IMG/VR virus record: IMGVR_UViG_3300027749_000171
Coordinates: 1 to 48,279 of that record
Length of the DNA stretch: 48,279 bases
From: a virus
Strand: one strand, 5' to 3'
The position numbers and the translations under genes were made by a program. The number at the start of each line of letters is the position of its first letter. The first letter of the stretch is position 1. Below are positions 3 through 39,183 of the stretch, piece by piece. Under the pieces are notes generated by a model, which was not told the origin of the DNA, ran no database searches, and saw only the letters and a list, made by a program, of their open reading frames with translations.

Positions 3-476
3 GCATCTAAGTTCGGTGTTCGACTTTTCGTGTCGGAAGTCCCAATGAGTGACTTTCGCTGTGCGATCAGTAACGACATCGCTGATGACTTGTTCACCAC
101 ATACTCCAACCAAGCACAGGAAATAGTGTCCCATGTGATGGTGGAACAGCAAACAAGGTTCTTGGATGTCATGAAGTCTATTAGCCATTGTTGCGGTGTT
201 GACGAGACAGGCGTTGACGCTAACACTGGCGAGACCAAGACCAAGAAGAGAAAGATCTATGACACGACCATCTTGAAAGCAAAAGAGATGTGCGAGTCAT
301 TCAAAGAGTTCAATCTGACGGACAGCCCTGAGTTGGAGGAAGCAAGGGCGTCGTTGGAGAGAGCATTGGAAGGCGTAGACGCAGAACTCATCCGTGAGTC
401 CGATGCGGTGCGCACTTCAGTGAAGGAGGATATTGACAGTATCCTCGGTAAATTCAGTTCATTCAGTTGCGTTTAA
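3..476 (+). CDS. DUF3150-like protein, 5'-truncated
   Basis: The frame is open from base 3 to the TAA at 474-476, so the N-terminus lies outside the window. A GTG at 30 is only an internal candidate, because the residues before it (ASKFGVRLF) read as ordinary protein. The visible part is mostly charged helix. A Lys-rich strip lies in the middle, and the C-terminal half pairs a FNLTDSPELEEAR-type segment with a long acidic helix. This layout and the position just upstream of a MoxR-type ATPase fit DUF3150, a family of unknown function often found beside AAA/VWA genes in phages. The family call rests on pattern memory, not alignment. The gene ends 20 bases before the ATPase start. Confidence 0.6.
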   Translation, partial: ASKFGVRLFVSEVPMSDFRCAISNDIADDLFTTYSNQAQEIVSHVMVEQQTRFLDVMKSISHCCGVDETGVDANTGETKTKKRKIYDTTILKAKEMCESFKEFNLTDSPELEEARASLERALEGVDAELIRESDAVRTSVKEDIDSILGKFSSFSCV

Positions 477-496
477 TTTAAAGGAAATTTTCAGTT

Positions 497-1624
497 ATGG
501 CACAAGTCCAATTCATCAATACAGTATCTATCAACGAACTCCGCACTATCATCCCATTGATAGGTGGGGAACTAACTCCAATCATCCAGTCAGAACCCGG
601 TTGTGGTAAGACCTCGCTCTTATCTATGATTGCATCAGACAACGGTGACACATGGCGCTCACCTGTAGACGGCACGAGCATCGAGGGTGACAAGTATGAC
701 TACATCTATGTCGACTGTCCCGTGAAAGATATGTCGGACATAGGTATGACTATTCCCAACCATGCCAATCGTCAGTTGGAATACTATGTGTCGGAGTTGT
801 TCAACCTCTCAGACTCCAAGCCTAAGATCATCTTGCTTGACGAGTTCATGAAGTCACCGAAGTTATTGCAAGTGATCTTCACTAGGCTCATGCTAGAGCG
901 TATGGTCGGTGACAAGGCATTGCCTAAGAGAGATGGTGTCCAATCCATCGTGTTCGGCACATCTAATAATGCATCAGATGGTGTCGGTGACAACATGCTC
1001 GCTCATGCGGGTAATCGTGTGTGCTTGATGCGCATGGCGAAACCCAATGTGAATGAGTGGTTGCAATGGGCATCAGAGAATGGTATCTCTCGTGTCATTC
1101 GTGCGGGTGTTGCGATGTTCCCTCGTTGCTTGGCATCCTACATTGACGGTGATCAGAAGGACAACCCATACATCTTCAAACCATCTATGAGTGCGTTGTC
1201 GTTTGTGTCTCCTCGCTCATTGGCGAAGGCAGATGTGATCGTCAAGCATCGTGACAAGATGACTGAGAACTCGTTGAAGGTTGCATTGGCTGGCACAGTC
1301 GGTGCGTCATTCGCAGGTGATCTCTCGGCATTCTTGATGATGGAGAAATCATTGGCTGATGTGAAGGACATCTGCAAAGACCCAGAGGGTATCGAAGTCC
1401 CGAAGGATATCAGTGCGCAGTTGATGATCATGTTCCAAGCAGTCGATGTGCTTGAGACACAAGATCAGTTGACGAAGTTCATGGGGTTCGTTGACCGCAT
1501 TCCATCCAGTGAGGTGCAAGCAGTGTTCTTCACCATGATGATGCGCAATCAGAAGTCCATCCGCTTGGCTCGTAACAATCAGAAGATCTCTGAGTGGGCT
1601 AAGAACAACCATGACATGTTCTAA
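497..1624 (+). CDS. MoxR-type AAA+ ATPase
   Basis: This 375-residue AAA+ ATPase has Walker A at residues 33-40 (EPGCGKTS, Lys38) and Walker B at about 111-116 (ILLDEF, Asp115-Glu116). A sensor-1-like segment (VFGTSNN) follows near 152. The short, single-domain form followed by a VWA gene matches MoxR/RavA/CobS-like ATPases. Those proteins act as hexameric remodellers or chaperones together with a VWA partner. An AAGGAAA Shine-Dalgarno stands ahead of the ATG. The substrate is unknown. It is unlikely to be a replication helicase loader, because it sits far from the replication genes and next to the VWA/metallopeptidase gene. Confidence 0.88.
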   Translation: MAQVQFINTVSINELRTIIPLIGGELTPIIQSEPGCGKTSLLSMIASDNGDTWRSPVDGTSIEGDKYDYIYVDCPVKDMSDIGMTIPNHANRQLEYYVSELFNLSDSKPKIILLDEFMKSPKLLQVIFTRLMLERMVGDKALPKRDGVQSIVFGTSNNASDGVGDNMLAHAGNRVCLMRMAKPNVNEWLQWASENGISRVIRAGVAMFPRCLASYIDGDQKDNPYIFKPSMSALSFVSPRSLAKADVIVKHRDKMTENSLKVALAGTVGASFAGDLSAFLMMEKSLADVKDICKDPEGIEVPKDISAQLMIMFQAVDVLETQDQLTKFMGFVDRIPSSEVQAVFFTMMMRNQKSIRLARNNQKISEWAKNNHDMF

Positions 1625-1642
1625 CGACAGTCGTATCTAAAG

Positions 1643-1659
1643 CCCCCCGCAAGGGTGGG
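1643..1659 (+). terminator. C/G-run hairpin after the ATPase gene (weak terminator or attenuator)
   Basis: CCCCCC, a GCAA loop and GGGTGGG form a six-pair stem with one bulged T. The tail (TATCTATTTAAA) is AT-rich but has no clean T run. It sits in the 70-base gap between the ATPase and the next gene. It may be an attenuator or a 3'-end stabiliser rather than a full terminator. Confidence 0.4.
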
Positions 1660-1694
1660 TATCTATTTAAACATTAACAGCAGAAAGGATTGTG

Positions 1695-1895
1695 ATGATC
1701 ACTATCACAGAGTTGGAGTTCGTCTTGTTCATAGGCTTGGTCGTGATGACTTACCTCTACTTCAAGCAGAGGGCTGAGATCGTTTCGTTCAAGACTCAGA
1801 CTATGAATATCTTTCACCAAGTTGCCAAAGGCAAATTAAAAATCACTGAGACCGAAGAAGGTTTCGAAATGGAGGTTACAAATGCAAACAAATAA
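1695..1895 (+). CDS. small single-pass membrane protein
   Basis: This protein has 66 residues. The N-terminus (residues about 6-24, LEFVLFIGLVVMTYLYF) is a hydrophobic span followed by KQR, which suggests an N-out/C-in anchor. The rest is a soluble tail of about 40 residues rich in K and E. ATG 1695 is preferred to GTG 1692 because the AGAAAGG Shine-Dalgarno (1682-1688) is better spaced for it. The gene lies between the ATPase and the VWA/metallopeptidase gene and overlaps the latter by 14 bases. It could tether that complex to the inner membrane; this is inference from position only. Confidence 0.7.
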   Translation: MITITELEFVLFIGLVVMTYLYFKQRAEIVSFKTQTMNIFHQVAKGKLKITETEEGFEMEVTNANK

Positions 1896-3183
1896 GCAAG
1901 AGACACGCATCAAGCGTGGACATGTGGCGTTGATGAAACACCCTGAGACTGCGCTCTATTCGGGCGTGATGCTGATGGGCACTACCAAGGTCGTGGATGA
2001 AGGATGTCCTACGGCATACACCGATGGTGTCAACAAGGTCTATGGTCGTGCGCACCTCGAGACTATCCCTAACGAAGCCAAGTTGCGTGGCTTGATCTTG
2101 CACGAGAACTTGCATGTGGCATTGAAGCATGTAGCGTTCGGTAAGGGTATGTTTCAAGAGAACCGCAACATGGCTAATCTGGCGGCTGACTTTGTGGTCA
2201 ACGACATCACAGAGAATATTAAGGGATGCGTGGCGGGCACACAAGAGCGTATCGTTGAACTGTATGAGAACGATGTGTATGACCCAATGTTTCACAACTG
2301 GTCGATGCGTGAGGTATACAACTATCTGAAGAAGCATGCCAAGCCAAAGCCTAAGCCACAACACGGCAAACCATGCGACAACCCTAGCGGTGGTAAGGGC
2401 GAAGATAGCGACCCATCCGAGGGTGGGAAGCAAGATAAGGAAGAGTGGGAGTCGGTTGAAGTCAACGGCAAGGTCTATGACCTTTCTAACTCAGACGAAC
2501 ACGACTTTGGCGGAGAGTTAACGCATGAGCAGATCAAGGAGATCAATGACAACATTGATCGTGCATTGCGTGAGGGTGGCATGCTTGCGGGTCGCATGGG
2601 TGCAAAGATTCCTAGATCAATCAGCGATCTACTCGAGCCCAAGATTGATTGGCGTGAAGCGTTGCGTGACTTCGTTACATCCTCCATCAAGGGTAAGGAT
2701 GAGTTCACTTGGCGCAAGTTGAACAAGCGTCACTTGGCTAACGACATTCTCACTCCAAGTGTAGAGAACGAAACGATAGGCGAGGTTATCGTTGGCTTTG
2801 ATACATCGGGTTCTATTGGTAGTGAGGAGATAACTGAGTTCGCTACGGAACTGGTCTCAGTTTGCGACCTTGCCCAACCCGAGCGGGTTCGTGTGTTGTG
2901 GTGGGACACCCAAGTTCATGGTGAGCAAATCTTTATGCCACACCAATACGCAAACATTGCATCACTGCTGAAACCATTGGGCGGTGGGGGAACTACCGTG
3001 TCATGCGTCAGTGAGTATATAAACAAAGAGAAACTCAATGCCGATTGTGTATTGGTGTTCACCGACGGATACCTAGAGCATGACATCCAGTGGAATATCT
3101 CTAGCCCAACTCTATGGATGATCACACGCAACAAAAACTTTGAGCCCCCTGTCGGCAAGATGGTGGTGTTCGGGGATGATTAG
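1882..3183 (+). CDS. metallopeptidase-like / VWA domain protein (DUF2201 type)
   Basis: This 433-residue protein has two halves. The N-terminal half carries a zincin motif HENLH (His74, Glu75, His78) in a helix. A low-complexity K/P/G/D-rich linker follows at about 150-190. The C-terminal half is a VWA fold with an intact MIDAS motif, DTSGSIG (Asp307, Ser309, Ser311). A Thr in the GGGGTT segment near 373 and the FTDG near 395 are further metal-site residues. This is the architecture of the putative metallopeptidase plus VWA-like family DUF2201. VWA proteins are the usual partners of MoxR ATPases, and that gene is two upstream. GGAGG precedes the ATG. The substrate and whether the zincin is active are unknown. 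Confidence 0.85.
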   Translation: MQTNKQETRIKRGHVALMKHPETALYSGVMLMGTTKVVDEGCPTAYTDGVNKVYGRAHLETIPNEAKLRGLILHENLHVALKHVAFGKGMFQENRNMANLAADFVVNDITENIKGCVAGTQERIVELYENDVYDPMFHNWSMREVYNYLKKHAKPKPKPQHGKPCDNPSGGKGEDSDPSEGGKQDKEEWESVEVNGKVYDLSNSDEHDFGGELTHEQIKEINDNIDRALREGGMLAGRMGAKIPRSISDLLEPKIDWREALRDFVTSSIKGKDEFTWRKLNKRHLANDILTPSVENETIGEVIVGFDTSGSIGSEEITEFATELVSVCDLAQPERVRVLWWDTQVHGEQIFMPHQYANIASLLKPLGGGGTTVSCVSEYINKEKLNADCVLVFTDGYLEHDIQWNISSPTLWMITRNKNFEPPVGKMVVFGDD

Positions 3184-3421: not shown

Positions 3422-3617
3422 AGCAAAAGCGGGTGCGCATATAGTGGCGCAGTTTGACGAGGAAGCGACATACATGGCATGCCTACCCGCATTGGAAAAA
3501 CTAGCCAAGAGCAATGGCTACATCGTGACTGAGAGTTTGGACTATGAAGATGCCAAGCAACTTGAGATCGACAACTTGAAAGCGGAACTTAAATATTTTT
3601 ATGGAGGTGGTAAATGA
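3399..3617 (+). CDS. hypothetical small acidic protein
   Basis: This 72-residue protein starts at ATG 3399, which has GAAAGG eight bases upstream. The longer frame from 3375 lacks a good ribosome site. It begins with a beta-like strand (MKVAVYFEAKAGAHIVAQF) and then has two helices, the second (QLEIDNLKAELKYF) with coiled-coil spacing. No family is recognised. It overlaps the previous gene by 23 bases and the next by four (ATGA). Confidence 0.6.
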   Translation: MKVAVYFEAKAGAHIVAQFDEEATYMACLPALEKLAKSNGYIVTESLDYEDAKQLEIDNLKAELKYFYGGGK

Positions 3618-4690
3618 AAGCATTTAACTACAAGCGACTGCTTGACATCACAAATACAGTCCCATCCTACCGTGGGAACGTAAATAGGTTTCCTATCGGT
3701 AACCGCAAGCAGAACCACAAATACTTTCTTAGACGAGACGAAGATGGTTACACAGTATTCGACATCGTGTATGGAGAGACATGGAACTCAACTGAGATTG
3801 ATAGGCTCGAATACATACGACTGAAACTCGAACACAGAAAGTTCAGAAAAGCAACTGGCACAGAGAGAGCGCAGACCTATGTAATGAAGTGGAAAAAGCA
3901 TACAACTATCGGTGGGGTATGGACTCAAAGCAAAGAGTTTGAATACGTTAGACGAGACAGAGGTCACAACATCGTTGGCACTGTGCGCCCTGACAACTCG
4001 TTTGAGTTCACTAAGTCACGCTACTGGCAAGGCGATCGTTGCTTTCTATCTCAACATAGTGCGGGGTGGTTCTCTACGGACTCACGCAGAGGTGGGATGA
4101 TATTTAGCGAGGGGTATCAAGAGATTGACGCTGTGTTCCATCCGATATGGAAAGGCTTGCGGGTCAACTGCGACACGATGGAAGCAATCACACCATATGA
4201 GGTAGTCATACATCATGTCGATCGCAAGTCTGGAAAGGGCATCTTGTCAAAGTATGAGCATATGTTTAAAGTTTCTGAGGTGATGCTCAAGGCTATGGAT
4301 TTGCACTCTATCAACAACACATGTATTGATATCGTTGACGGTATTCTCGGTGAAGGCAAGCACAAGGAACATGTGGGTCGCACGAGAGAATACATAGAAC
4401 ATGCTGAGAAACTAATAAACGATGCGCCATTGGATGCACTTCTATTGTTCACTCTTGCGCATGAAGTCAGGCATGTAGGGTATCGCATGAGGTATGGCAT
4501 GAACAACCATACTGATGACACACCTGAGAACATCTTCATGGCTACTAAACGCAGAGTTGCTAAAGAAATCTATAAGAAGAACCCTGACATCCTCAAGGAA
4601 GTGCCGTGTGCGGGTGGCAAGCGTTATCCCGCATGCGATTGGGGTGTGAAAGTAATGGTCAACGGTCAACAAGTGGAGCAAGCAACATGA
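3614..4690 (+). CDS. unknown protein with HExxH zincin motif
   Basis: This 358-residue protein belongs to no family I recognise. The first 230 residues are basic and aromatic-rich (many R, K, Y, W). Near the C-terminus, residues 283-287 read HEVRH within a helix (LFTLAHEVRHVGYRMRYG), the classical zinc-metallopeptidase motif. A further His (about 299) and acidic residues (DDTPENIF) just downstream are possible third ligands. It is the second HExxH protein in a row after the VWA gene, so a peptidase role in the same system is possible. SprT-like or minor zincin folds are alternatives. It is coupled to both neighbours by ATGA overlaps, and GGAGG lies ahead of the start. Confidence 0.65.
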   Translation: MKAFNYKRLLDITNTVPSYRGNVNRFPIGNRKQNHKYFLRRDEDGYTVFDIVYGETWNSTEIDRLEYIRLKLEHRKFRKATGTERAQTYVMKWKKHTTIGGVWTQSKEFEYVRRDRGHNIVGTVRPDNSFEFTKSRYWQGDRCFLSQHSAGWFSTDSRRGGMIFSEGYQEIDAVFHPIWKGLRVNCDTMEAITPYEVVIHHVDRKSGKGILSKYEHMFKVSEVMLKAMDLHSINNTCIDIVDGILGEGKHKEHVGRTREYIEHAEKLINDAPLDALLLFTLAHEVRHVGYRMRYGMNNHTDDTPENIFMATKRRVAKEIYKKNPDILKEVPCAGGKRYPACDWGVKVMVNGQQVEQAT

Positions 4691-5797: not shown

Positions 5798-6150
5798 GAC
5801 ACATGAGCCCTGTCGTGCATCCGAAGGACTGGAATCTCATTAGAGTTCCTTTGCACAAGTTTGAGAACAAATACAGCGTGTATGTATCTGATGACCTTGT
5901 GCGCCACTACGATGAAAAGACATTGCCTGATGTATTGAAATCAAAGATGGCAATGATTCTTGCGTCACCACAACCCAATCTCATACCCGAGCATAGGCTA
6001 CAGAAATTAGATGTGTATAGCGTCAGCATGCCCGAACTTGCGTTGGTGGGTTGGCGTGTATCTGATACATGGTTTTGCTTGGCGATAGATCGCTTAACTT
6101 TAAACTCACTGAAGGGTGGGACTCTAACTAAGGAGAAAGAAAATGCTTGA
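5791..6150 (+). CDS. hypothetical protein
   Basis: This is a 119-residue protein if it starts at ATG 5791, which overlaps the upstream TAG by seven bases. ATG 5776 would add five residues. No family is recognised. It contains a KYSVYVSDDLVRHYDE segment and a C-terminal GWRVSDTWFCLAIDR strand pair. The last codons contain the Shine-Dalgarno (AAGGAG, 6130-6135) of the next, very small gene. Confidence 0.6.
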   Translation: MLGHMSPVVHPKDWNLIRVPLHKFENKYSVYVSDDLVRHYDEKTLPDVLKSKMAMILASPQPNLIPEHRLQKLDVYSVSMPELALVGWRVSDTWFCLAIDRLTLNSLKGGTLTKEKENA

Positions 6151-6247
6151 AACAATCGCATGGGCAGTATTTTTGATGTGTCTTGGTGCAATCATTATTG
6201 TTGGTGTGGCAATAGCCATCGTAATGATTAACCGAGAAGATCTATGA
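6143..6247 (+). CDS. 34-residue membrane miniprotein
   Basis: This ORF runs from ATG 6143 to TGA 6245-6247 and encodes 34 residues. Almost all of it is one hydrophobic span (residues 5-29, IAWAVFLMCLGAIIIVGVAI...), followed by NREDL. It has a near-perfect Shine-Dalgarno, AAGGAG, seven bases upstream. It overlaps the previous gene by eight bases and the next by ATGA, exactly like the annotated genes around it. These signals make it a real gene despite its length. Its role is unknown. Small phage membrane proteins of this sort can be toxins, superinfection-exclusion factors or membrane anchors, but nothing here chooses between them. Confidence 0.7.
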   Translation: MLETIAWAVFLMCLGAIIIVGVAIAIVMINREDL

Positions 6248-6501
6248 CATTCGATAAGAACTTCTACCATCCTTGGGTTAATAGACGTTCTGAGAATCGA
6301 AAGCCTATCTACTTGTTAAGTGAGATAGCCGATATGGTTGGTATTGAACACCGAGAACTTCTATCGAAGATAACAAGTTCGGCAAATAGAGGTCTACCCA
6401 TACCAAAGTTTAGGCTTATGCACAAATCAGTATCAGGCACAAAAAGATATTACGACAAAACTGATGTGATTAATTTTTTGAAAGGATACACACCCAAATG
6501 A
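6244..6501 (+). CDS. small putative DNA-binding protein (HTH-like)
   Basis: This 85-residue protein is basic at both ends. Residues about 22-45 (PIYLLSEIADMVGIEHRELLSKI) look like a helix-turn-helix entry. The C-terminal RYYDKTDVINFLK resembles the wing/strand-helix end of excisionase or MerR-like domains. It starts inside the stop codon of the membrane miniprotein and overlaps the nuclease gene by four bases. A role in binding DNA is plausible but unproved. Confidence 0.55.
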   Translation: MTFDKNFYHPWVNRRSENRKPIYLLSEIADMVGIEHRELLSKITSSANRGLPIPKFRLMHKSVSGTKRYYDKTDVINFLKGYTPK

Positions 6502-6785
6502 CACCCGAAGGCAAAGTCAAGGTCAAGATTCAAAAGATTCTTAAGGCACACGATGTCTACTTCACCATGCCTATCGGCACAGGGTTTGGTAGTGCGGGCG
6601 TGCCTGATTTTGTTGTATGCCATAAGGGTAACTTTATTGGTATCGAAGCGAAGTCAGGCGACAACAAACCGACTGCCCTACAACTCGAACACATGAAAAG
6701 AATTCGTGAGCGAGGTGGGCACACACTCGTAGTGAATGAAGATAACTTTGATGAACTAGATTCATTACTGAAAGGATTGAAATGA
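6498..6785 (+). CDS. VRR-NUC domain nuclease
   Basis: This 95-residue protein is the usual length of a stand-alone VRR-NUC domain. It shows the PD-(D/E)xK pattern GVPD (Asp37), then IEAK (Glu50, Lys52), then a helix with Gln62 and LEHMKRI. The family comprises structure-specific or Holliday-junction-type endonucleases, and many phages carry it among replication genes. Overlaps of four bases on both sides place it in a tightly coupled operon. Confidence 0.87.
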   Translation: MTPEGKVKVKIQKILKAHDVYFTMPIGTGFGSAGVPDFVVCHKGNFIGIEAKSGDNKPTALQLEHMKRIRERGGHTLVVNEDNFDELDSLLKGLK

Positions 6786-6988
6786 CAGATGAAGAAGATC
6801 GTAGCAATTTGCGAGATCTACACGCAGGGTTTGCGATGGTGGGATTACTAATGAAAGGAGAACACCCGCCCACTATTCCCGCCCTAGCGTATGAACTCGC
6901 AGATGCTATGCAAGAAGCACGAAACCAACATGGGGTTGGAATCGTATCCGTTAAACGCCAAACCAAGAAGGAGAAGGCAAATGAATAG
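6782..6988 (+). CDS. hypothetical small protein
   Basis: This 68-residue protein is helical with an acidic start (MTDEEDRSNL) and a basic tail (KRQTKKEKANE). A central GFAMVGLLMKGEHPPTIPALAYELADAM segment is compact and hydrophobic. I do not recognise a family. It overlaps the nuclease gene by four bases and the DUF3310 gene by eight. Confidence 0.6.
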   Translation: MTDEEDRSNLRDLHAGFAMVGLLMKGEHPPTIPALAYELADAMQEARNQHGVGIVSVKRQTKKEKANE

Positions 6989-17605: not shown

Positions 17606-17798
17606 ACTCAAAGAACCTGAATGGATTTTTCCGTTTCAAGGAATGGAGATAGGTGACAGCTTCTTCATTCCTACTTTGCGCTTTGCAGAGATGATTTATG
17701 CAGTTGATAGCGGGAGCAAACGCGCCAAAGTCCGTGTTAAGTCATACGTTACAGTCAAAGACTCACACGTAGGTGTACGGGTCTGGCGCGTTGGTTAA
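17592..17798 (+). CDS. hypothetical small protein, last gene of the rightward block
   Basis: This 68-residue protein starts at ATG 17592, overlapping the primase-helicase stop by 14 bases. It is beta-rich (MEIGDSFFIPTLRF..., AKVRVKSYVTVKDSHVGVRVWRVG), like a small barrel. No family is recognised. Its stop codon shares a TTAA with the stop of the convergent 2409-residue gene. Confidence 0.65.
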   Translation: MIPSELKEPEWIFPFQGMEIGDSFFIPTLRFAEMIYAVDSGSKRAKVRVKSYVTVKDSHVGVRVWRVG

Positions 17799-20700
17799 GG
17801 CTCTAAATCATAAGCTTTGAACTGTTCGACTAGTTCTCGCTTAAGAATATTTTGGAAGAGGATGTTGATTCTTAACAAAGCTTGTCTTTCACCCATAGTG
17901 ATAGGCATAGTACGTATCTCATTTGCCTGTTTGTGCAGTGCGTCCAACTCACCTTTCTTATCGTTGTATATATCAACGATAGTCCTATACATAGGGTGAT
18001 TTGCTTCGTATCTAGCCGCAATGTCAGGGGCAGCCCTAGTCATGTTGTCGTTCAACTTTTGCGATATCTCTTTTATCTTTTGTTCCATTCTGCCAAACTC
18101 ACGGGCATCCACGTTTGACTTAGCGCCAAAGAATGAACCAAATAAAGGTAGATCATCTTTAGGAGTGAACTCACGTTCATTACTGATCTGCATGTTGTAC
18201 TGCAAACTAGCAACACGAGATATACCATCTGCGTAGCTGTTAGCCAAGAAAAATAGAGTGTTAGGGCTCACGTCCCACTCTCCGTCAGTAGCATCAAGTA
18301 TGTACTGCGCTGCGGAACGATACATTTCTGGAATGCGGTCACCACCAGTAAATGCATCAGCCATGCGACGTGTAGATGCGCTGTTGATTTCTTGTCCAAT
18401 GCCGTTCACGTTCATGGAAAATTCAACTATAGGTCGAATAACGCTAGGCATTATTGAGTCTACGGCAAAGTTACGCATACTCTCTAAGCTCTCTGTAGGC
18501 GGTATCTTAGAGATAGGAATAGGTACGTAAGAATCCAACATGGAAGAAACCATGTTACCCATACCATCTTTAACTGATTGGATACCAGCAAACATAGCTG
18601 CTACTTGCGCTCCAGCGGCAGCAAATGCTCCAAGACCAAAGCCCCAAGGAATTTGGAACACAACATTGTCACCAAGACCTAAAGCGTTTGAAACACTAGA
18701 GGGTATATGAAAACGCGCATAGCGTGACCACTGTTGCATGTTGTCACTCATGGTTGCATTACGCCCCATGTCATCGTCATCTGCACTAAACGCAGACAAC
18801 AGGAACATCAGCATGCCAGAAGACATAAGAGCCGTAATCATCATCCGAGCATTTCGTTGACGCTCTTTATAGTTTTCTAAATAAGTCTTAACGGCTTCTG
18901 GGTTGTCACGGATACCTTCTGGCAAAGAGTTGACCAATCCTTGACGAGTGCCTGTGAACCTGCTCAATACTGGTATGTCACGGAACGCTGGGGCAGTGGC
19001 TTCAATAGCAACCGCTGCACCTGTAGCAGATGTGCGAATAAACATATAGATCGCGCCAAGCACACGACCGTATTCGCCAACAGATTCAAAGTTTGCAAGT
19101 TCTTTTACCTCTGTTTTGGCACGTGATATGGCTTCGTTCATAGCACGCTCTTCAGTCCAGTCTGGGTGTTTCTTAAGATTTTCTTTATAGAACTGATCGC
19201 GTAACAACCCGTAGGCCGCTGTGCGGCTGGCAAATTCAAACATGTTTGTCCACACATCCAGAATCTTGCCACCCTGCTCCATGGTAGTAGCGATACGCCC
19301 CTTACCCATGCCTTTATCAAGCTCTTCAATCTGAGACTTTAAAGAAAAGCCAGCTAAATATGTAGTCTTACCACCTTCAGATATATATTCAACCATGGTT
19401 TGAACATATGGATCGTTTTTAGCAAGTTTCATTAACTGTTGACGACTTACCGCATCTGGTTTGTCATGTAACGCTGCAACCATCATTGCTTTATACATAC
19501 CGTTTTGTGTAGCCACTTGCGTAGAGATTTCCTTAATCAACTTTAGAGACTTGACTGGGCCATACTTAGCGCCAATAGTCCACGCGTTAGTTAATAAGTC
19601 ACGCGCAAAGTTAACTAGTGGGAAGTCGTAGTTGTAACGCGTATGCATACGACCAAACATGCCTGTTATACGATTTGATATATCAAGCAGAATGTTTGAA
19701 TCTTGGAACGTATGACGGATGGAATTACGTATGTAATCGTTCTTTACAAACATAATATCTATAGAGCCATCTGAATTGTGGTTCCAAATGTATTTGTCTG
19801 TTTTGTATTTACTAAGGTCTGCAACTTCCCGTTCTTTAAACGGAATTGTTTTTACAACTTCGCCTTCAAGAATTCCAGTACCGTCAGGGTTTGGATACTT
19901 GCCGTCTTTATCTGGCTTACCTTTTGGTAAAGCGTTTCTTATTGCCAGAGTCAAATTACGCATACCGGCACGGCTTGCGGCACGGGTAGCGTCAGACATA
20001 ACCTGTAGTAGCGGGTTAGCAGAAGAACTAAAACGACCGCCCATAGACACAGGAGCTTCCTGCAGGTCACGCCCGTTACCGCGACTATCTAAGTCGATCA
20101 TTTCATCGATACTGTCTTGCTTAGTACCTTCTTTACCTTTGCCCTTACCTTTAAACGGTAGGTAATAATTGAACCCATAGATACCTACAAGGTTGCTTAC
20201 ATGATATGACCAGAAGTTACCAATCTTGTCTAATTCAGCAGATTCTCTAGTGAGCTCACTTACTGCACTTAGTATCCGCTCTACTGCGGCACGTTCTTCT
20301 GGTTTTAGTTGCGCAATCTCTTTACGACGTAAATTTATATCTTGTTCGTTGATACCCAATACGTTGTAGTCCACTGAATAGAAGTCGTCAGACTTAATTT
20401 TGGAATCAGTCTTAAGTGTCTCTCCACCTTTGAGGTCAACATAGCCACCATTTTTACTAAAGCTAAATGTTCCATCTGCTTCTTTATTTAAGCGACCACC
20501 AGTCAACATTTCAAGTTCTTGGCGCAATGCAATCTTTTGGGCGTCGGTAAGTTCCGTCATATTTATGATGCCGGGAATACCTTTACTCTTGTCACCTACG
20601 ATTTGCACTCGACGTTCAGCTGGACTAATAAGCTTGCCGTTATGCATCAACGTTTTAGCTTTACTAAGCGGCACTGATAACAACCACTTTACAAACCTAC

Positions 20701-23700
20701 GCTCTGGCTCATGATAAGTTTCTACGATTGCGTGCAGTCTTGCTACAGCATCCTCAGCACTTAATTTGGCTGCCCGCGCAAAGTCATGAATAGACACGCG
20801 CAGTTGTTCCATAGGAATCTGAAGACGTGATATGTAGAAGTTTTCTGCTTCAGCTGCGCTAACGATAGCTTGGCTATAGGAATTATTAAAGTTAAGACTT
20901 AAATCACGAATTAACTTCCCCGCCAACTCAGCTTGTTCTTGCGCATATTTAGCATGATATCTACGGTTCTGTACCATAGTAGCAATTTTGCGCCAGCCCA
21001 TGCTAGTAGTAAGAGTTTCCCATAACTTTTTAGCGTGCTTTGGTAGCTCTTTCGGACTGAGCTTGTATCTTGGATTCTTTTCAGCGTCAGTAATCCCAGA
21101 TGGTTTGTACTCAGGCCCTTCTCCCGGCTCTGCTTCTTTAGCAGACAACTTGCCTAGGTTAGTAATACCACCTGTTGGCACAGATAAGATATCTTCGAAT
21201 GCGGCGGACAACTGCAACACAAAGTTATGTGATTGCATCGCGCCTTTAGGCGTTCCAAACAATCCACCAATAGCTTTTTTAAACTCAGACCACATACTCT
21301 TAGCTTTGGGCAGGATAGATGAAATGTCTTCCGCACCAAAATTAATTCCTGTGGCGTCTTGGAACTTAACTATGTCTCCGTAATCAAAACCTAATCCAGC
21401 TAAGTCAGCTTGGAAATAGCTATCGTTCATAGCGTAGGCTACAAACTCATAGACGTTTTGATATGCGTTGGTGTATTCATCCGCTAACTCTACGCCAGAC
21501 TGACGCATGATTGTGTATATCTGTTCTGCGCCAGCTATCTGTTGCGGAGATAGTTGATTTCTTAGATTAGGTAATGGGTTACCGTTACGGTCTTTCTGCC
21601 CAACACTAGAGTACATATGCAGTACACGCACAGTCGCGGCATGGGACACCTCATGTAAAAGAGTTGGTATTGTTAGGCCACCCGCCTGAGACAGGTACAC
21701 AGTATCGCTGTCAGGGTCATACTGCCCCAAGTCAGCATCAGATAGGAATGGCTTTATTTCTATCTTTGTTTTTAAGTTTAAGTTGGCAAGAAGCTTGGCA
21801 ACATACGAGAACATCTTCTTGCGTGGGTCTGGATTATTATTAAGTGACTCAGCAATCTCATATATAGCTGCATTTAGCTTACCGTTTGTAATATGCTCTA
21901 TTACTTTATTAGATAAGGTTAGACCGCTCTTGTTAGTTTTGTTATCTAAGCTAGTGATGCGCTCATAGTCTTTTTGTATCTTTGCTAACTTCTTAGCTTC
22001 TGCTTCCGCATCCTTGCGCACCTTTGCTTGGCGTTCACGAATGTTCTGTAGTTCTTTTTCAGTTTGGCCTTGGGTAAGGTCTTGACGACTAGCAACTAAT
22101 TGTTCAGCGGCTGCAGCAAACGCACGGTCTTGTTGTTTACCCGCGTTGTTAACCATTTGCTGAAGATATGATCCTTTAGCTGCAGCAGATAGATCGCCCC
22201 ACCGTGGGAACTTCACACCATATAGTTTTGATGCTTCACGTCTGTTTTCTTCGTAGCCAAGGATAACTCTACGCCCAGATGGTGTAGCTGTTTTCTCAAC
22301 AGTTTGCGCTTCTTCTTGTGAAGTTTTGTATCCAACTTCACGCGAACCAACCTTAGCTCTGTAGTCTATAAGTGCTTGGGCCGCTGCGCGATGCTCCGGC
22401 AAATTGCCGTATCGCATATTGCCAAAGTAAACATCTTTTTCATCTGAGTCTAGTTTGTACCACTCTGGTAAATCAGGGAACTCTTCACGCATCTTTTCGT
22501 AGTTAGCGCGGTTTTCAGCAGAGATAGCACCACCAATTCTTGGTGGCATGCCGTAATAGGCTTCAGCTTCAGTTTGTTTTAGTTCTTGTTCAGCGTTGTA
22601 TTTAAGTTCTGACTTACCAAGTGATTCGTTATATGCTGTTTCGCCAGCCGTTTTTTCTTGTTGTTCGTATAACTTACCAAGCTCAATCGCGCCTTTAAGG
22701 TTTTCTTCTTCTGTAGCGTTAGGGTCAATCTTGAACGCAGGTGTAGTGTCTTGTTGTATGGCGACAAGGCGTGGGTCAGCTACGCCCTTCTCCATAAATT
22801 CTTTTAACCATTGCCTAACAGTTTTAGGCTTTTCTTCTTTTTTGGCGTACAGCACATCTTTTTCACCGGACAAACCATTCTTGTCAAACTGCGACAAACC
22901 AAAACCAGCTTGCCCTTCAAGTTTATTTAAATAAGCAATCCTGCTTTTTACTTTTGGGTGAGTAAGCGGCAAACCTTCTGTGACTAGATGTTCTTCAATC
23001 TCATCAATGCGTCTATAAATTTCAGCTCTAGCTTCAGATTTAGCGGTATCGGGCGCCATACCTTGCGCTTCAAAACCACTAACTAATTGTTGCCATTCAT
23101 TCTTCGGTTCAGCTGTAGTTGTAGCTTGTAAGCCGCCCAGCCCAGCCTCTGCTTTTTGGATTTCATTATCCAACTCCATAGCTTTTGCATTAAGTGCAGC
23201 AAGTGCTACACCTTTCTTAGAGTTGGGGCTAGGCTTTTTATCGCTACCACCAAACAATTTAAGGCGCTGGTCTGTTAACTCTGCTCTTTTAGCTTTTAGT
23301 TCCGCTAGTGCAGTGGACTGTGGAGTCTCTCCTCCAACAAGTTGTGCAGTAGCTGTGTCAGTAGGTACCACTCTACCTGACTCAGGTTTTGTAGTTCTTC
23401 TGGCGGGGGGTCTGACAGCGGGTTTTGTATCCACAGCAGGGCCTGCTCCAGCTGACTGTTGCTCAGTTCCTGTAGCATCTGATTCTCCTTCTGCGAGTTT
23501 GGCCTTGATAGCCGTAATAGCTCTCTCATTGAACCCCTTCCCTACTTCAACGTCTATCCCAAGATCACTAATTATTTTTTTAAGTTTTGACTGGTTCTTC
23601 TTTCCAGTAGCGTCAACTTCATCCATGTACTTCTGAGCGTTAGTCGTTTTGTCATCGACAGTAGCAGGCGCAGCATCAATCGTTGCTAAAGTAGTACCTG

Positions 23701-25024
23701 TACCTGCATCAACGGCAGGCGTAAGCATTGCTACTTGTTCTTCAGTTAAATTTTGTTGTTTTGGTTCTGAGCGAACCGCATCCTTTGGAGCCAAGAAGTT
23801 TTTTTCTTCTTCGTTAGGAATCATTCTGTCAGCGGTAAGGTATGGAGCCTTATATGCTTCGCGCCCACCAGCTATACCACCTACTAATGCGCCAGCTAAA
23901 CCTTCATACACACCTTGACTAACTACACCGCGCATTGTTGGGGTATCAAACCCAAGACGTTGCTCAGCCAAGTTTTTAGAAAGTTGTTCTTGCCCACCTT
24001 GAAGAGTTTCTGTAACGAACTCTTCACCAGCTTTCATTGCTGCATGTTTTTTTACTCCGGCTTTACCAGCTTCAACTGCAGCTTTTTTAATCTGCTCTTC
24101 CACCGCAGCTTTCGTGGCCTCAGTACCGACCCTTTTAGCAATGCTTCGCGCAATGATGGATTCCGCACCCGTACGCGCAGCGGCAGCGCCAAGGCCAGCG
24201 CCAATAAGAATACTGTCTAAGTTTTTACCATCATAAGCCTGCGCTTCTTGCGCAATCTTTTCAATCTGTTTATCAGATAAATTAGTCTTTTCTTTTAATA
24301 TCTCAACAGTACCGTCGTAGATTGAACCTTTGACAGTACCTGCGCCCATAATTGCGCCAACACCAAGAGTGGTTGCTAGTCCAGCAAGAGTACCGCCACC
24401 AGTAAGAACTGTTGCTGCAGCGGCGGCTAGGACAGGCGCCATAGAACCAACACCCATAGCAAGCGCATCAAGAGGCGCTATAGATATAGCTTTTACAGCG
24501 GCTAAAAGTTGGGGGCCAAGACCTTTATCTTCAGCTTCTTTGAAAATGCGCGCCATTTCTTGCGCGTCATTTTTTGCCTGTGCGCTAGTTAATCCTATTA
24601 AATAATCTTGGGTATTTGCAAGCGCTCTACCTGCGGAACTATTTGCGCCAAAAAAATCAACAATAGTTTTAAATCCACCAGCACCAGACGCTATTGCTTG
24701 AAGTGGCATATCAGCTACACCGCCAAGCACAGTATCTAATGGAGTGCCAACAGTTTCGCCAAAGACTCGTTTAAATAACGGATCGCCTTCACGCAAGTTT
24801 TCTTTTACCTCTCTAACTGGAGGCGTTTCAACTGCAGGTGGTGGCGTAGTTGCGGCTGGAGTAGAAGTGATGGGCGGCGCGCTTAAATGTTTAAGCAATT
24901 CCGAATCTGTATATCCAACTTTTCTTGCTTTAACTACATCTAGCGTAGAGTCTTTAGCAAGATAGTCAACAAGTTCCGAATCAGAATAACCAGCAGCCTT
25001 TGCTTTTTCTATGTCAAGTGCCAT
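17795..25024 (-). CDS. giant polyvalent virion protein with zincin motif
   Basis: This 2409-residue protein is the largest gene. The N-terminus has two copies of a short motif (AKAAGYSDSELVDYLA at about 8-23; ARKVGYTDSELLKHLS at about 32-47). A hydrophobic Ala/Gly-rich stretch lies at about 175-230. Residues 1124-1128 are HEVSH within TIPTLLHEVSHAATVRVL, a zinc-peptidase motif. The region about 1750-1990 resembles the LPD38-type domain of polyvalent proteins. A further hydrophobic helix lies near 2065 (MMITALMSSGMLMFLLSAF). Long linkers are charged and repetitive. Such proteins are thought to be packaged and injected with the DNA, with the peptidase part acting on host or virion proteins. AAGGAT lies upstream. 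Confidence 0.78.
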   Translation of the reverse strand: MALDIEKAKAAGYSDSELVDYLAKDSTLDVVKARKVGYTDSELLKHLSAPPITSTPAATTPPPAVETPPVREVKENLREGDPLFKRVFGETVGTPLDTVLGGVADMPLQAIASGAGGFKTIVDFFGANSSAGRALANTQDYLIGLTSAQAKNDAQEMARIFKEAEDKGLGPQLLAAVKAISIAPLDALAMGVGSMAPVLAAAAATVLTGGGTLAGLATTLGVGAIMGAGTVKGSIYDGTVEILKEKTNLSDKQIEKIAQEAQAYDGKNLDSILIGAGLGAAAARTGAESIIARSIAKRVGTEATKAAVEEQIKKAAVEAGKAGVKKHAAMKAGEEFVTETLQGGQEQLSKNLAEQRLGFDTPTMRGVVSQGVYEGLAGALVGGIAGGREAYKAPYLTADRMIPNEEEKNFLAPKDAVRSEPKQQNLTEEQVAMLTPAVDAGTGTTLATIDAAPATVDDKTTNAQKYMDEVDATGKKNQSKLKKIISDLGIDVEVGKGFNERAITAIKAKLAEGESDATGTEQQSAGAGPAVDTKPAVRPPARRTTKPESGRVVPTDTATAQLVGGETPQSTALAELKAKRAELTDQRLKLFGGSDKKPSPNSKKGVALAALNAKAMELDNEIQKAEAGLGGLQATTTAEPKNEWQQLVSGFEAQGMAPDTAKSEARAEIYRRIDEIEEHLVTEGLPLTHPKVKSRIAYLNKLEGQAGFGLSQFDKNGLSGEKDVLYAKKEEKPKTVRQWLKEFMEKGVADPRLVAIQQDTTPAFKIDPNATEEENLKGAIELGKLYEQQEKTAGETAYNESLGKSELKYNAEQELKQTEAEAYYGMPPRIGGAISAENRANYEKMREEFPDLPEWYKLDSDEKDVYFGNMRYGNLPEHRAAAQALIDYRAKVGSREVGYKTSQEEAQTVEKTATPSGRRVILGYEENRREASKLYGVKFPRWGDLSAAAKGSYLQQMVNNAGKQQDRAFAAAAEQLVASRQDLTQGQTEKELQNIRERQAKVRKDAEAEAKKLAKIQKDYERITSLDNKTNKSGLTLSNKVIEHITNGKLNAAIYEIAESLNNNPDPRKKMFSYVAKLLANLNLKTKIEIKPFLSDADLGQYDPDSDTVYLSQAGGLTIPTLLHEVSHAATVRVLHMYSSVGQKDRNGNPLPNLRNQLSPQQIAGAEQIYTIMRQSGVELADEYTNAYQNVYEFVAYAMNDSYFQADLAGLGFDYGDIVKFQDATGINFGAEDISSILPKAKSMWSEFKKAIGGLFGTPKGAMQSHNFVLQLSAAFEDILSVPTGGITNLGKLSAKEAEPGEGPEYKPSGITDAEKNPRYKLSPKELPKHAKKLWETLTTSMGWRKIATMVQNRRYHAKYAQEQAELAGKLIRDLSLNFNNSYSQAIVSAAEAENFYISRLQIPMEQLRVSIHDFARAAKLSAEDAVARLHAIVETYHEPERRFVKWLLSVPLSKAKTLMHNGKLISPAERRVQIVGDKSKGIPGIINMTELTDAQKIALRQELEMLTGGRLNKEADGTFSFSKNGGYVDLKGGETLKTDSKIKSDDFYSVDYNVLGINEQDINLRRKEIAQLKPEERAAVERILSAVSELTRESAELDKIGNFWSYHVSNLVGIYGFNYYLPFKGKGKGKEGTKQDSIDEMIDLDSRGNGRDLQEAPVSMGGRFSSSANPLLQVMSDATRAASRAGMRNLTLAIRNALPKGKPDKDGKYPNPDGTGILEGEVVKTIPFKEREVADLSKYKTDKYIWNHNSDGSIDIMFVKNDYIRNSIRHTFQDSNILLDISNRITGMFGRMHTRYNYDFPLVNFARDLLTNAWTIGAKYGPVKSLKLIKEISTQVATQNGMYKAMMVAALHDKPDAVSRQQLMKLAKNDPYVQTMVEYISEGGKTTYLAGFSLKSQIEELDKGMGKGRIATTMEQGGKILDVWTNMFEFASRTAAYGLLRDQFYKENLKKHPDWTEERAMNEAISRAKTEVKELANFESVGEYGRVLGAIYMFIRTSATGAAVAIEATAPAFRDIPVLSRFTGTRQGLVNSLPEGIRDNPEAVKTYLENYKERQRNARMMITALMSSGMLMFLLSAFSADDDDMGRNATMSDNMQQWSRYARFHIPSSVSNALGLGDNVVFQIPWGFGLGAFAAAGAQVAAMFAGIQSVKDGMGNMVSSMLDSYVPIPISKIPPTESLESMRNFAVDSIMPSVIRPIVEFSMNVNGIGQEINSASTRRMADAFTGGDRIPEMYRSAAQYILDATDGEWDVSPNTLFFLANSYADGISRVASLQYNMQISNEREFTPKDDLPLFGSFFGAKSNVDAREFGRMEQKIKEISQKLNDNMTRAAPDIAARYEANHPMYRTIVDIYNDKKGELDALHKQANEIRTMPITMGERQALLRINILFQNILKRELVEQFKAYDLEP

Positions 25025-36852: not shown

Positions 36853-38040
36853 TTAAGGTGAACCAACACAAGTTGATGGGAATTGACGTGTGTTACCGGG
36901 CCAAACAATGCGGACAGCGCCATTTTTACCAGCACCATAATAGTAGGTAGTACTTGCCCAACTACAGCAAACATACGGCCCCGCTTGATAAATAGTAGTG
37001 CCACCCGCGCCGCCATACGCGCCGCCAGTTGGAGGAGCAAAGACATTAGTTGCGTTGCCACCATTACAACCGCTACTACCGCCTCCACCGCCTCCACCAG
37101 TAGTACCCGTAGTACCACCAGCACCATTAGAACCTTGACCACATAAACCTGTTCCACCGCCAGCGCCAAAATATACTCTACGGCAGGTATAACCGTTTTG
37201 TAAACTTCCACCACCGCCACCGCCACCGCCACCGCCTGCGCCAGCATTACCTACACCACTGCAACCGCCTTGACCACCATTACCTGAGTATCCTCCAGCG
37301 CCTCCGCCAGCGTTGTTGCCTTTAGCGCCACCATTACCACCGCCCGTACCAGCGTGAGTCCCTGCGGCAGTTCCTCCTCCGCCACCAGTAGCGGCATTGG
37401 ATGGGCCATAACTATCAGTACCCCTAGAATTTACACCTCCAACACCAACCCTAAGTTGATATGAATTGCCCGGAACAACCGTAACATTGTTTGTCCATCC
37501 TAGTCCACCCCCCGCCCAATAAGTACAACCGCATACACGGCCACCACCACCGCCACCAATAGCAACAATAGATACTGAAGTTACGCCAGCAGGGGCAACC
37601 CAACAATATAAACCCGGAGTTGTATAGGACTGAGAGCCAGCATTGAACGTAGTAATACTGTTAGACGCTGCGCTTGATGGGCCAGTGCCGCCGGGAGTAG
37701 CTCCTGCTACGCTAAAGGTGTACGAAGTATTGCCTGCCAGACCACTGACGGTTAATGGCGAGGTTGTACCCCCACCCGTATATCCACCGGGGTTAGATGT
37801 CGCCGTGTATGAGATCGACCCATTACCTAAGCAAGAAGGTGCGGTAAACGCAACCGTAGCCGTGCTTGTACCCGTAGCCGTAGCAGTCCCAATCGTAGGA
37901 GCGCCGGGGCTTCTAGGCCAGATGCCTTGCTTGGTGTAGTTCTGTGCTTGGTCAAGCGTCCAGATACCTTTAGCTGCCGAACTTGTTGGAGCCGTTGGGT
38001 TCTTGGTGATGATGCCACCGGGATATTGTTTGATACTCAT
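36853..38040 (-). CDS. tail fibre: FN3 domain + Gly-rich repeat region
   Basis: This 395-residue protein begins with a short attachment-like segment (GGIITKNPTAPTSSAAKGIWTLDQAQN). An FN3 domain follows at about 45-130 (PGAPTIGTATATGTSTATVAFTAPSC...). Then comes a 230-residue Gly-rich region (GGGGGG, GAGGGGGGGGGGS, GGTTG). It ends with NGAVRIVWPGNTRQFPSTCVGSP. It is a paralog of the next gene. Gly-rich phage adhesins can fold as polyglycine sheets, and the Cys residues in this half are unusual. Confidence 0.75.
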   Translation of the reverse strand: MSIKQYPGGIITKNPTAPTSSAAKGIWTLDQAQNYTKQGIWPRSPGAPTIGTATATGTSTATVAFTAPSCLGNGSISYTATSNPGGYTGGGTTSPLTVSGLAGNTSYTFSVAGATPGGTGPSSAASNSITTFNAGSQSYTTPGLYCWVAPAGVTSVSIVAIGGGGGGRVCGCTYWAGGGLGWTNNVTVVPGNSYQLRVGVGGVNSRGTDSYGPSNAATGGGGGTAAGTHAGTGGGNGGAKGNNAGGGAGGYSGNGGQGGCSGVGNAGAGGGGGGGGGGSLQNGYTCRRVYFGAGGGTGLCGQGSNGAGGTTGTTGGGGGGGSSGCNGGNATNVFAPPTGGAYGGAGGTTIYQAGPYVCCSWASTTYYYGAGKNGAVRIVWPGNTRQFPSTCVGSP

Positions 38041-39183
38041 TTATGGTGCTCCTGCACAAGTTGATGGGAAGCTGCGAGTATTGCCCGGCCACATGATACG
38101 GACAGCGCCTGTACCCGCCATACCAAGACCATAGCCTTTATTTGAGCCTCCACCGCCACCATAATTACCGCCTGCACCGCCGGGCACATTACCAGATGTA
38201 TAAGTACCGCCAGCAGTACCGCCAGAGCCGCCAGCGCCACCAGTAGCCGTACAACCCGAACCCACACCACGCGCACCACTAGAACCTTCACCAAATAAAC
38301 CTACACCGCCTCCACCGCCACCGCCTTTATTAGATTGGTTTGCAGGGCCACCGCCACCACCACCGCCACCACCAAGACCAGCTTCTCCATTCCTAAGTGT
38401 AGAATTTACAGCGCCAGCGCCCCCAGAACCTGAGTATCCACCAGCGCCACCGCCACCACCAGCAGTATTGCAACCCCCACCCGCGCCACCTGACCCGCCA
38501 CCTGTGTAACAACCTGCTGGATTGCCTCCAGTACCTTGTGGATAATAACCACAACATACGTTATAGGCTTTTGCCAATCCCGCGCCTCCAGTAATATTTA
38601 TTGGAGTACCTAATGCACTGCTGTTATTTACATCGCCAACAACAACTGTATAAGAATTACCGGGAATAACTGTAACGTTATTACGATAAGCTAAAGCACC
38701 GCCACCACCGCCCGAAATTCCAGTACCAGCACGATAACCGCCACCACCAATAACAACCGCAGAAACAGAGGTAACTCCGGCAGGAGCAACCCAAGAGAAT
38801 GAACCCACGCAGGTATACGATTGCGAACCCGCACTTGAAGCAGTAATTGAATTACTAGCCGCACTTAACGCGCCGTACCCTGTTGCATTTGTTGCTTGGG
38901 CTTTAAATGTGTAAGACGTTCCAACTGTTAGCCCAGACACTACAACCGGGGAGGACGCGCCTGTATTTGAGAAACAACCGGGAGTTGAAATAACTCTATA
39001 GCCAGTAATACCACCAGCAGGGTAACCTGTACAAGCAGGAGCAGTAAACGTTACAGATGCACAAGCCGCTGTACCAGCCGTAGCCGTACCAATCGTAGGC
39101 GCACCGGGCGTTGCTGGCCATGTGCTTGCACCCTTTGCTTGCATCTGCTGGGTGACTGTCCAGATTCCTGAGAAATTAGGCAT
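38041..39183 (-). CDS. tail fibre paralog: FN3 domain + Gly-rich repeat region
   Basis: This 380-residue protein is a clear paralog of 36853-38040. It shares GIWTVTQ at the start, an FN3 domain at about 28-112, QSYT..G.FSWVAPAGVTSVS.V.IGGGG, Gly-rich runs and the same end (MWPGNTRSFPSTCAGAP). The Gly-rich part differs in length and order, as expected from slippage or recombination between repeats. Its start overlaps the previous gene by eight bases. Confidence 0.76.
   Translation of the reverse strand: MPNFSGIWTVTQQMQAKGASTWPATPGAPTIGTATAGTAACASVTFTAPACTGYPAGGITGYRVISTPGCFSNTGASSPVVVSGLTVGTSYTFKAQATNATGYGALSAASNSITASSAGSQSYTCVGSFSWVAPAGVTSVSAVVIGGGGYRAGTGISGGGGGALAYRNNVTVIPGNSYTVVVGDVNNSSALGTPINITGGAGLAKAYNVCCGYYPQGTGGNPAGCYTGGGSGGAGGGCNTAGGGGGAGGYSGSGGAGAVNSTLRNGEAGLGGGGGGGGGPANQSNKGGGGGGGVGLFGEGSSGARGVGSGCTATGGAGGSGGTAGGTYTSGNVPGGAGGNYGGGGGSNKGYGLGMAGTGAVRIMWPGNTRSFPSTCAGAP

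Follow-up and report, generated by a model that had tools for sequence, protein, structure and literature searches.

A set of three conserved genes, encoding a DUF3150-like protein (gene A), a MoxR/midasin-clade AAA+ ATPase (gene B) and a zincin–vWA protein (gene D), was identified at the start of the virus record IMGVR_UViG_3300027749_000171. It is tentatively read, with a probability of roughly 0.4, as encoding an ATP-driven machine of three parts, carried by mobile elements, that would remodel a substrate inside the cell in the replication or take-over phase and not in virion maturation. The core ATPase/zincin–vWA pair is already known; an obligate DUF3150-like partner and the occurrence of the complete trio on both phages and plasmids appear to be new.

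The window analysed (the whole stretch of DNA, 48,279 bases) is a fragment, the edge of which cuts inside gene A. The first 3.2 kb contain four open reading frames (genes A, B, C and D), all on the + strand and with operon-like spacing; they were found in the order and at the positions given in the first-pass annotation. Genes A and B are separated by 20 nt and genes B and C by 67 nt, genes C and D overlap by 14 nt, and a purine-rich Shine–Dalgarno-like sequence precedes each of genes B, C and D. The A–B–D set sits within the block of replication genes and the structural block lies on the opposite strand. The conserved genes upstream gave no Pfam match.

Gene B (497–1624, + strand) encodes a 375-residue ATPase of the N4 gp24 family. 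Its product matched the PHROG 1297 ATPase (E = 2.3e-48), and the top PDB match of the family profile was midasin (E = 2.5e-24); the same profile also matched PDB entry 2r44 (E = 1.1e-7), which we take to be a MoxR-type ATPase. The Walker A motif (SEPGCGKT), the Walker B motif (ILLDE) and the sensor residues are invariant, with Lys38, Asp115, Glu116, Asn157, Arg174 and Arg240 identical in 67 of 67 ATPases in the family alignment. The earlier description of a MoxR-type AAA+ ATPase with Lys38 and Asp115–Glu116 was correct as to the residues and is supported as to the clade by the midasin match. No match to the Pfam AAA_3 (MoxR) model above its cut-off was obtained anywhere in the window, and the assignment of gene B, made from its sequence, is therefore to the midasin/MoxR clade outside the AAA_3 model.

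Gene D (1882–3183, + strand) encodes a 433-residue protein of the N4 gp25 family. A Pfam scan identified DUF2201_N (E = 1.9e-22) and DUF2201 (E = 4.5e-16), so that PF13203 and PF09967 occur in one protein with 80.6 and 59.5 bits against cut-offs of 23.2 and 26.4, respectively. The HENLH zinc-binding/catalytic motif (codons 2101–2115, + strand; residues 74–78) is intact in 68 of 69 relatives (His74 in 68/69, Glu75 and His78 in 69/69). Asp103, which is absent from the first-pass account, is invariant (69/69) and is located on the helix that follows the HExxH helix; on the basis of this invariance and position it is probably the third zinc ligand. The MIDAS motif DTSGS (codons 2800–2814, + strand; residues 307–311) retains Asp307, Ser309 and Ser311 in all 68 aligned relatives, with Thr371 and Asp395 kept in 67 of 67 aligned, and Asp307, Ser309, Gly310 and Ser311 are invariant among the phage and plasmid relatives. 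The fusion of an HENLH zincin to a vWA domain with an intact MIDAS, as proposed in the first pass, was thus borne out both in its residues and by two Pfam domains above cut-off. N4 gp25 has the same key residues, as do the proteins of Bacillus phage G, Thermus phage phiFa and PA5oct and almost every plasmid copy; the HE of HExxH is missing from a copy on a Variovorax plasmid.

An AlphaFold2 model of the gene D product contained two confident domains (residues ∼3–150 and ∼300–430) joined by a linker that is unreliable in the model. Structure searches, in which the zincin half was not a separate query, returned vWA matches only, the vWA half matching vWA domains with Z of about 12; no significant sequence relatives of gene D were found in the PDB. 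RefSeq and PHROGs (PHROG 1314) label the zincin–vWA protein as an HNH endonuclease. The Pfam scan of gene D yielded zincin and vWA domains only and no HNH model, and the label is probably a misannotation. A candidate second zincin in the window (3614–4690, HEVRH) was dropped, as the HExxH pattern was present in one of 66 relatives and its columns were variable.

Gene A (3–476, + strand) starts beyond the window edge, and the part present encodes the C-terminal 157 residues of a mostly helical protein of ∼305 residues; full-length relatives mostly have ∼302–325 residues. PF11348 was not found in the gene A copies of three relatives (L001, L050 and L066) by hmmscan at the curated cut-off, and a genome search of the contig of L066, a divergent relative, gave a sub-threshold PF11348 match (E = 0.0078). 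The L066 protein matched the 'DUF3150' protein of Synechococcus phage MinM2 (tblastn, E = 2e-11) and plasmid proteins (tblastn, E down to 2e-17). Alignment of the phage family with the plasmid/MinM2 DUF3150-like set using hhalign gave a probability of 99.9 (E = 1.4e-33 over 280 columns), in support of the identity suggested by the first reading, and a Cupriavidus plasmid member from the same kind of operon matched PF11348 just below the cut-off (E = 1.1e-4). The best BFVD match for the predicted structure of the L001 protein was a 'DUF3150 domain-containing protein' (E = 5e-13); against solved structures the fold gave generic helical-bundle matches only (Z up to 9), which were uninformative. 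Gene A is accordingly labelled DUF3150-like and not DUF3150: judged through these intermediates it is homologous to DUF3150-annotated proteins, although it falls under the Pfam threshold. In cellular genomes, homologues of gene A were found on one contig of one actinobacterial MAG only, which is probably a binned viral contig; in 198 genomes of the phylum of this MAG no true DUF3150 members were detected, and the control was also undetected, which makes this negative uninformative.

Gene C (1692–1895, + strand) encodes 67 residues from a GTG start or 66 from the next ATG, and hydropathy analysis predicts one transmembrane stretch. It had been proposed as the membrane anchor of the machine. Homologues are present in close relatives, but of the 44 complete relatives only 17 have a recognisable gene C, and many relatives have no hydrophobic open reading frame between the ATPase and zincin–vWA genes. 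Gene C is therefore lineage-specific, and neither it nor a membrane link belongs to the core.

Linkage was assessed in related viral contigs, of which the gene D search provided 76 (49–92% identity). The gene A search returned at least 576 relatives, the best 80 of which were used; some of these were on contigs already in the gene D set. The new gene A-anchored loci numbered 78. The first-pass annotation had staked its proposal on co-occurrence in related phages, and gene B followed by gene D was found after gene A in all 64 of the loci with enough downstream sequence; the order DUF3150-like, ATPase, zincin–vWA is kept in every viral relative that is long enough to check. In 44 loci that include the DNA polymerase, the median identity to the window was 67% for A, 72% for B, 64% for D and 70% for the polymerase, so that conservation of A, B and D is close to that of the polymerase, and was about 35% for genes E and F, which come next after gene D. 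Values of dN/dS against the nearest relative (0.08 for A, 0.11 for B and 0.16 for D) indicate that the three genes are clearly under purifying selection.

The B–D pair corresponds to gp24/gp25 of phage N4. Homologues of gene D were detected by tblastn in 728 phage records ranging from Schitoviridae to jumbo phages and phage G, and genes B and D showed tblastn homology to members of the Schitoviridae over almost their full length. In N4 and other Schitoviridae, as in the window, the ATPase and DUF2201 zincin–vWA genes are neighbours, and in those phages they precede the replication genes; N4 differs from the window in that the two proteins have only about 20–28% identity and no DUF3150-like protein was detected. 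At profile sensitivity gene A was likewise undetected in PA5oct, phage G, phiFa and RHph_TM29, all of which have the pair, and this counts against the favoured model, as does the finding that gene A is present in Tunturi_3, in which B and D genes of these families were not detected. MinM2 carries MoxR, DUF3150 and vWA genes together.

The trio also occurs on large plasmids, mostly from Burkholderiales. The three genes are consecutive on plasmids of Burkholderia, Cupriavidus, Rhodovastum and Variovorax, some of them conjugative, and in the nine plasmid records present in both the gene A and the gene D result tables a gene A homologue lies directly before the zincin–vWA gene in every case (9/9). 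On a Simplicispira plasmid the DUF3150-like and zincin–vWA genes are adjacent and an ATP-binding protein is encoded a few kilobases upstream; a Synechocystis plasmid has gene D, with gene A undetected. Cassettes such as those of Cupriavidus pMTS2 and Burkholderia pBMC401 have the same three families adjoining on one strand, in the order ATPase–DUF3150–vWA as opposed to the phage order DUF3150–ATPase–vWA, and some plasmid copies are near PRTRC or type IV secretion genes. The trio may have come to serve different functions on phages and on plasmids.

NorQ/NorD, CbbQ/CbbO and RavA/ViaA, which are cellular enzyme activators, combine a MoxR-clade ATPase with a MIDAS-bearing vWA partner, as do genes B and D; to our knowledge their partners have neither an HExxH zincin domain nor a DUF3150-like subunit. 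In NorQ/NorD a single vWA protein is attached to a MoxR hexamer, the MIDAS touches the target and ATP hydrolysis drives remodelling (PMC9976466). Ternary MoxR–vWA–VMAP conflict systems have been described in bacteria (PMC7159879); these parallel A–B–D in having a dedicated third protein beside MoxR and vWA, but there the third protein is VMAP and effectors are fused to the vWA protein, whereas A–B–D has a DUF3150-like protein and a single conserved zincin. The N4 pair also appears in papers on a roseophage and a Sinorhizobium phage, where it is either left as unknown or annotated at the domain level (PMC2784036, PMC6992544). In the literature searched, coverage of which was incomplete, no mention of DUF3150 or of DUF2201 joined to MoxR was found, which serves as a lead only.

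In the favoured model, the gene B product would form a MoxR-type ring on which the gene D product would dock via its vWA domain. D would use its MIDAS metal to capture a target protein; B, by hydrolysing ATP, would pull on D and on the captured protein, and the zincin domain would cut the protein presented to it in this way. With a NorQ/NorD-like arrangement and a zincin carried on the vWA protein, remodelling would be coupled to cleavage. The gene A product may be a dedicated, largely helical third subunit, most likely for specificity or scaffolding, and the machine would probably act inside the cell in the replication or take-over phase.

The function of the set in phages had been called unexplained in the first-pass annotation. 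This was overstated, since a MoxR and metallopeptidase–vWA pair in group 2.2 jumbo phages was in 2021 proposed, without experiment and by analogy with Acidianus two-tailed virus, to serve in assembling virions and processing their structural proteins (PMC7824862). The two proteins are the same as here, with the metallopeptidase N-terminal to the vWA domain as in gene D, and the available text of that paper describes no third component, whereas the window has gene A. An ATPase and zincin–vWA protein acting on phage structural proteins as chaperone and processing protease would agree with the near-universal presence of the pair in the clade, as expected of a core function, and with an 'ESI-MS/MS' note on the PA5oct ATPase record, like those on PA5oct structural proteins, which also speaks against the favoured model. 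We nevertheless consider this explanation improbable, and less likely as a general function, because the trio is found on plasmids, which make no virions, and because the genes lie among the replication genes in the window and, in N4, upstream of such genes. In addition, DSL-LC04 and HTVC027P have several late-block homologues in common with the window (tail and stabilisation proteins), and neither the ATPase nor the zincin–vWA gene was detected in them; with so few late proteins in common, and those divergent, this evidence is moderate. Capture, remodelling and probable cleavage of an intracellular target are thus favoured over virion maturation, and the trio is unlikely to be solely a tool of virus-particle assembly.

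Proteolysis itself may be questioned. The machine could be a chaperone or metal-insertion activator of the NorQ/NorD or CbbQ/CbbO kind, in which the zincin fold serves for binding and a target complex is opened; gene B belongs to the appropriate midasin/MoxR clade, the known MoxR–vWA pairs are chaperones (PMC7159879, PMC9976466), and the Variovorax copy suggests that cleavage is perhaps not essential everywhere. A purely binding domain would have no need of an HExxH motif and Asp103 that are conserved almost without exception across a very broad range, and this activator function appears doubtful. A role in counter-defence or in conflict between elements, suggested by the ternary make-up shared with the bacterial MoxR–vWA–VMAP systems and by the presence of the trio on phages and plasmids that face the same host defences, is judged distinctly unlikely: PADLOC gave only a marginal match for the ATPase (mad8, E = 0.02) and no match of gene A to any defence model, conservation is strong and uniform with no variable effector domains, and the genes are present in essentially all clade members and not patchily. 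The bolder notion that lytic phages and large plasmids have in common an undescribed ternary AAA+ protease system, which degrades or remodels a host protein limiting both, is likewise considered improbable.

More than 700 records of sequenced phages, that of the textbook phage N4 among them, contain the zincin–vWA protein. The third protein that travels with the pair, together with the plasmid trio, shifts the question from virion assembly towards a shared intracellular target, and the trio provides a defined three-protein complex to reconstitute, by which a long-standing puzzle of the N4-type phages is made testable.

The proteins related to the zincin-vWA fusion (window 1882-3183, + strand) carry the label 'HNH endonuclease' in PHROG 1314 and in many RefSeq phage records; NC_008720 gp25 and NC_023719 gp576 are examples of its RefSeq relatives. 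According to Pfam, a metallopeptidase and a vWA domain are the only domains in the protein, and the label is probably a misannotation that has been propagated. A second zincin was considered at window 3614-4690, where a fast-evolving protein of 358 residues contains an HEVRH motif, and was ruled out because the motif is not kept in its relatives.

Elsewhere in the window, the late block contains an ORF of 2409 residues on the − strand (17795-25024) with no PHROG match. Two adjoining − strand ORFs (36853-38040 and 38041-39183) both match PHROG 4474, a family of unknown function, and are apparently tandem paralogues.

The DUF3150-like protein, which forms a trio with the ATPase and the zincin-vWA protein, is represented in Tunturiibacter phage Tunturi_3 by gp96 (5872-6831 of locus L085), which is annotated as an HNH endonuclease; no ATPase or zincin-vWA protein of the trio families was detected in this phage.

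On plasmids, PRTRC-system genes lie a few kilobases from the trio in Burkholderia (locus L169) and Cupriavidus (L171), and in the former type IV secretion genes follow the trio directly. In Rhodococcus plasmid pBD2 (L174) a hypothetical protein of 397 residues without a Pfam match is encoded between the zincin-vWA protein and an AAA ATPase and is perhaps an unrelated third partner.

Among cellular genomes, the DUF3150-like gene was found on a single contig (L166), assigned to an actinobacterial MAG. The zincin-vWA gene is also present on it, and L166 is probably a viral contig that was binned with the MAG.
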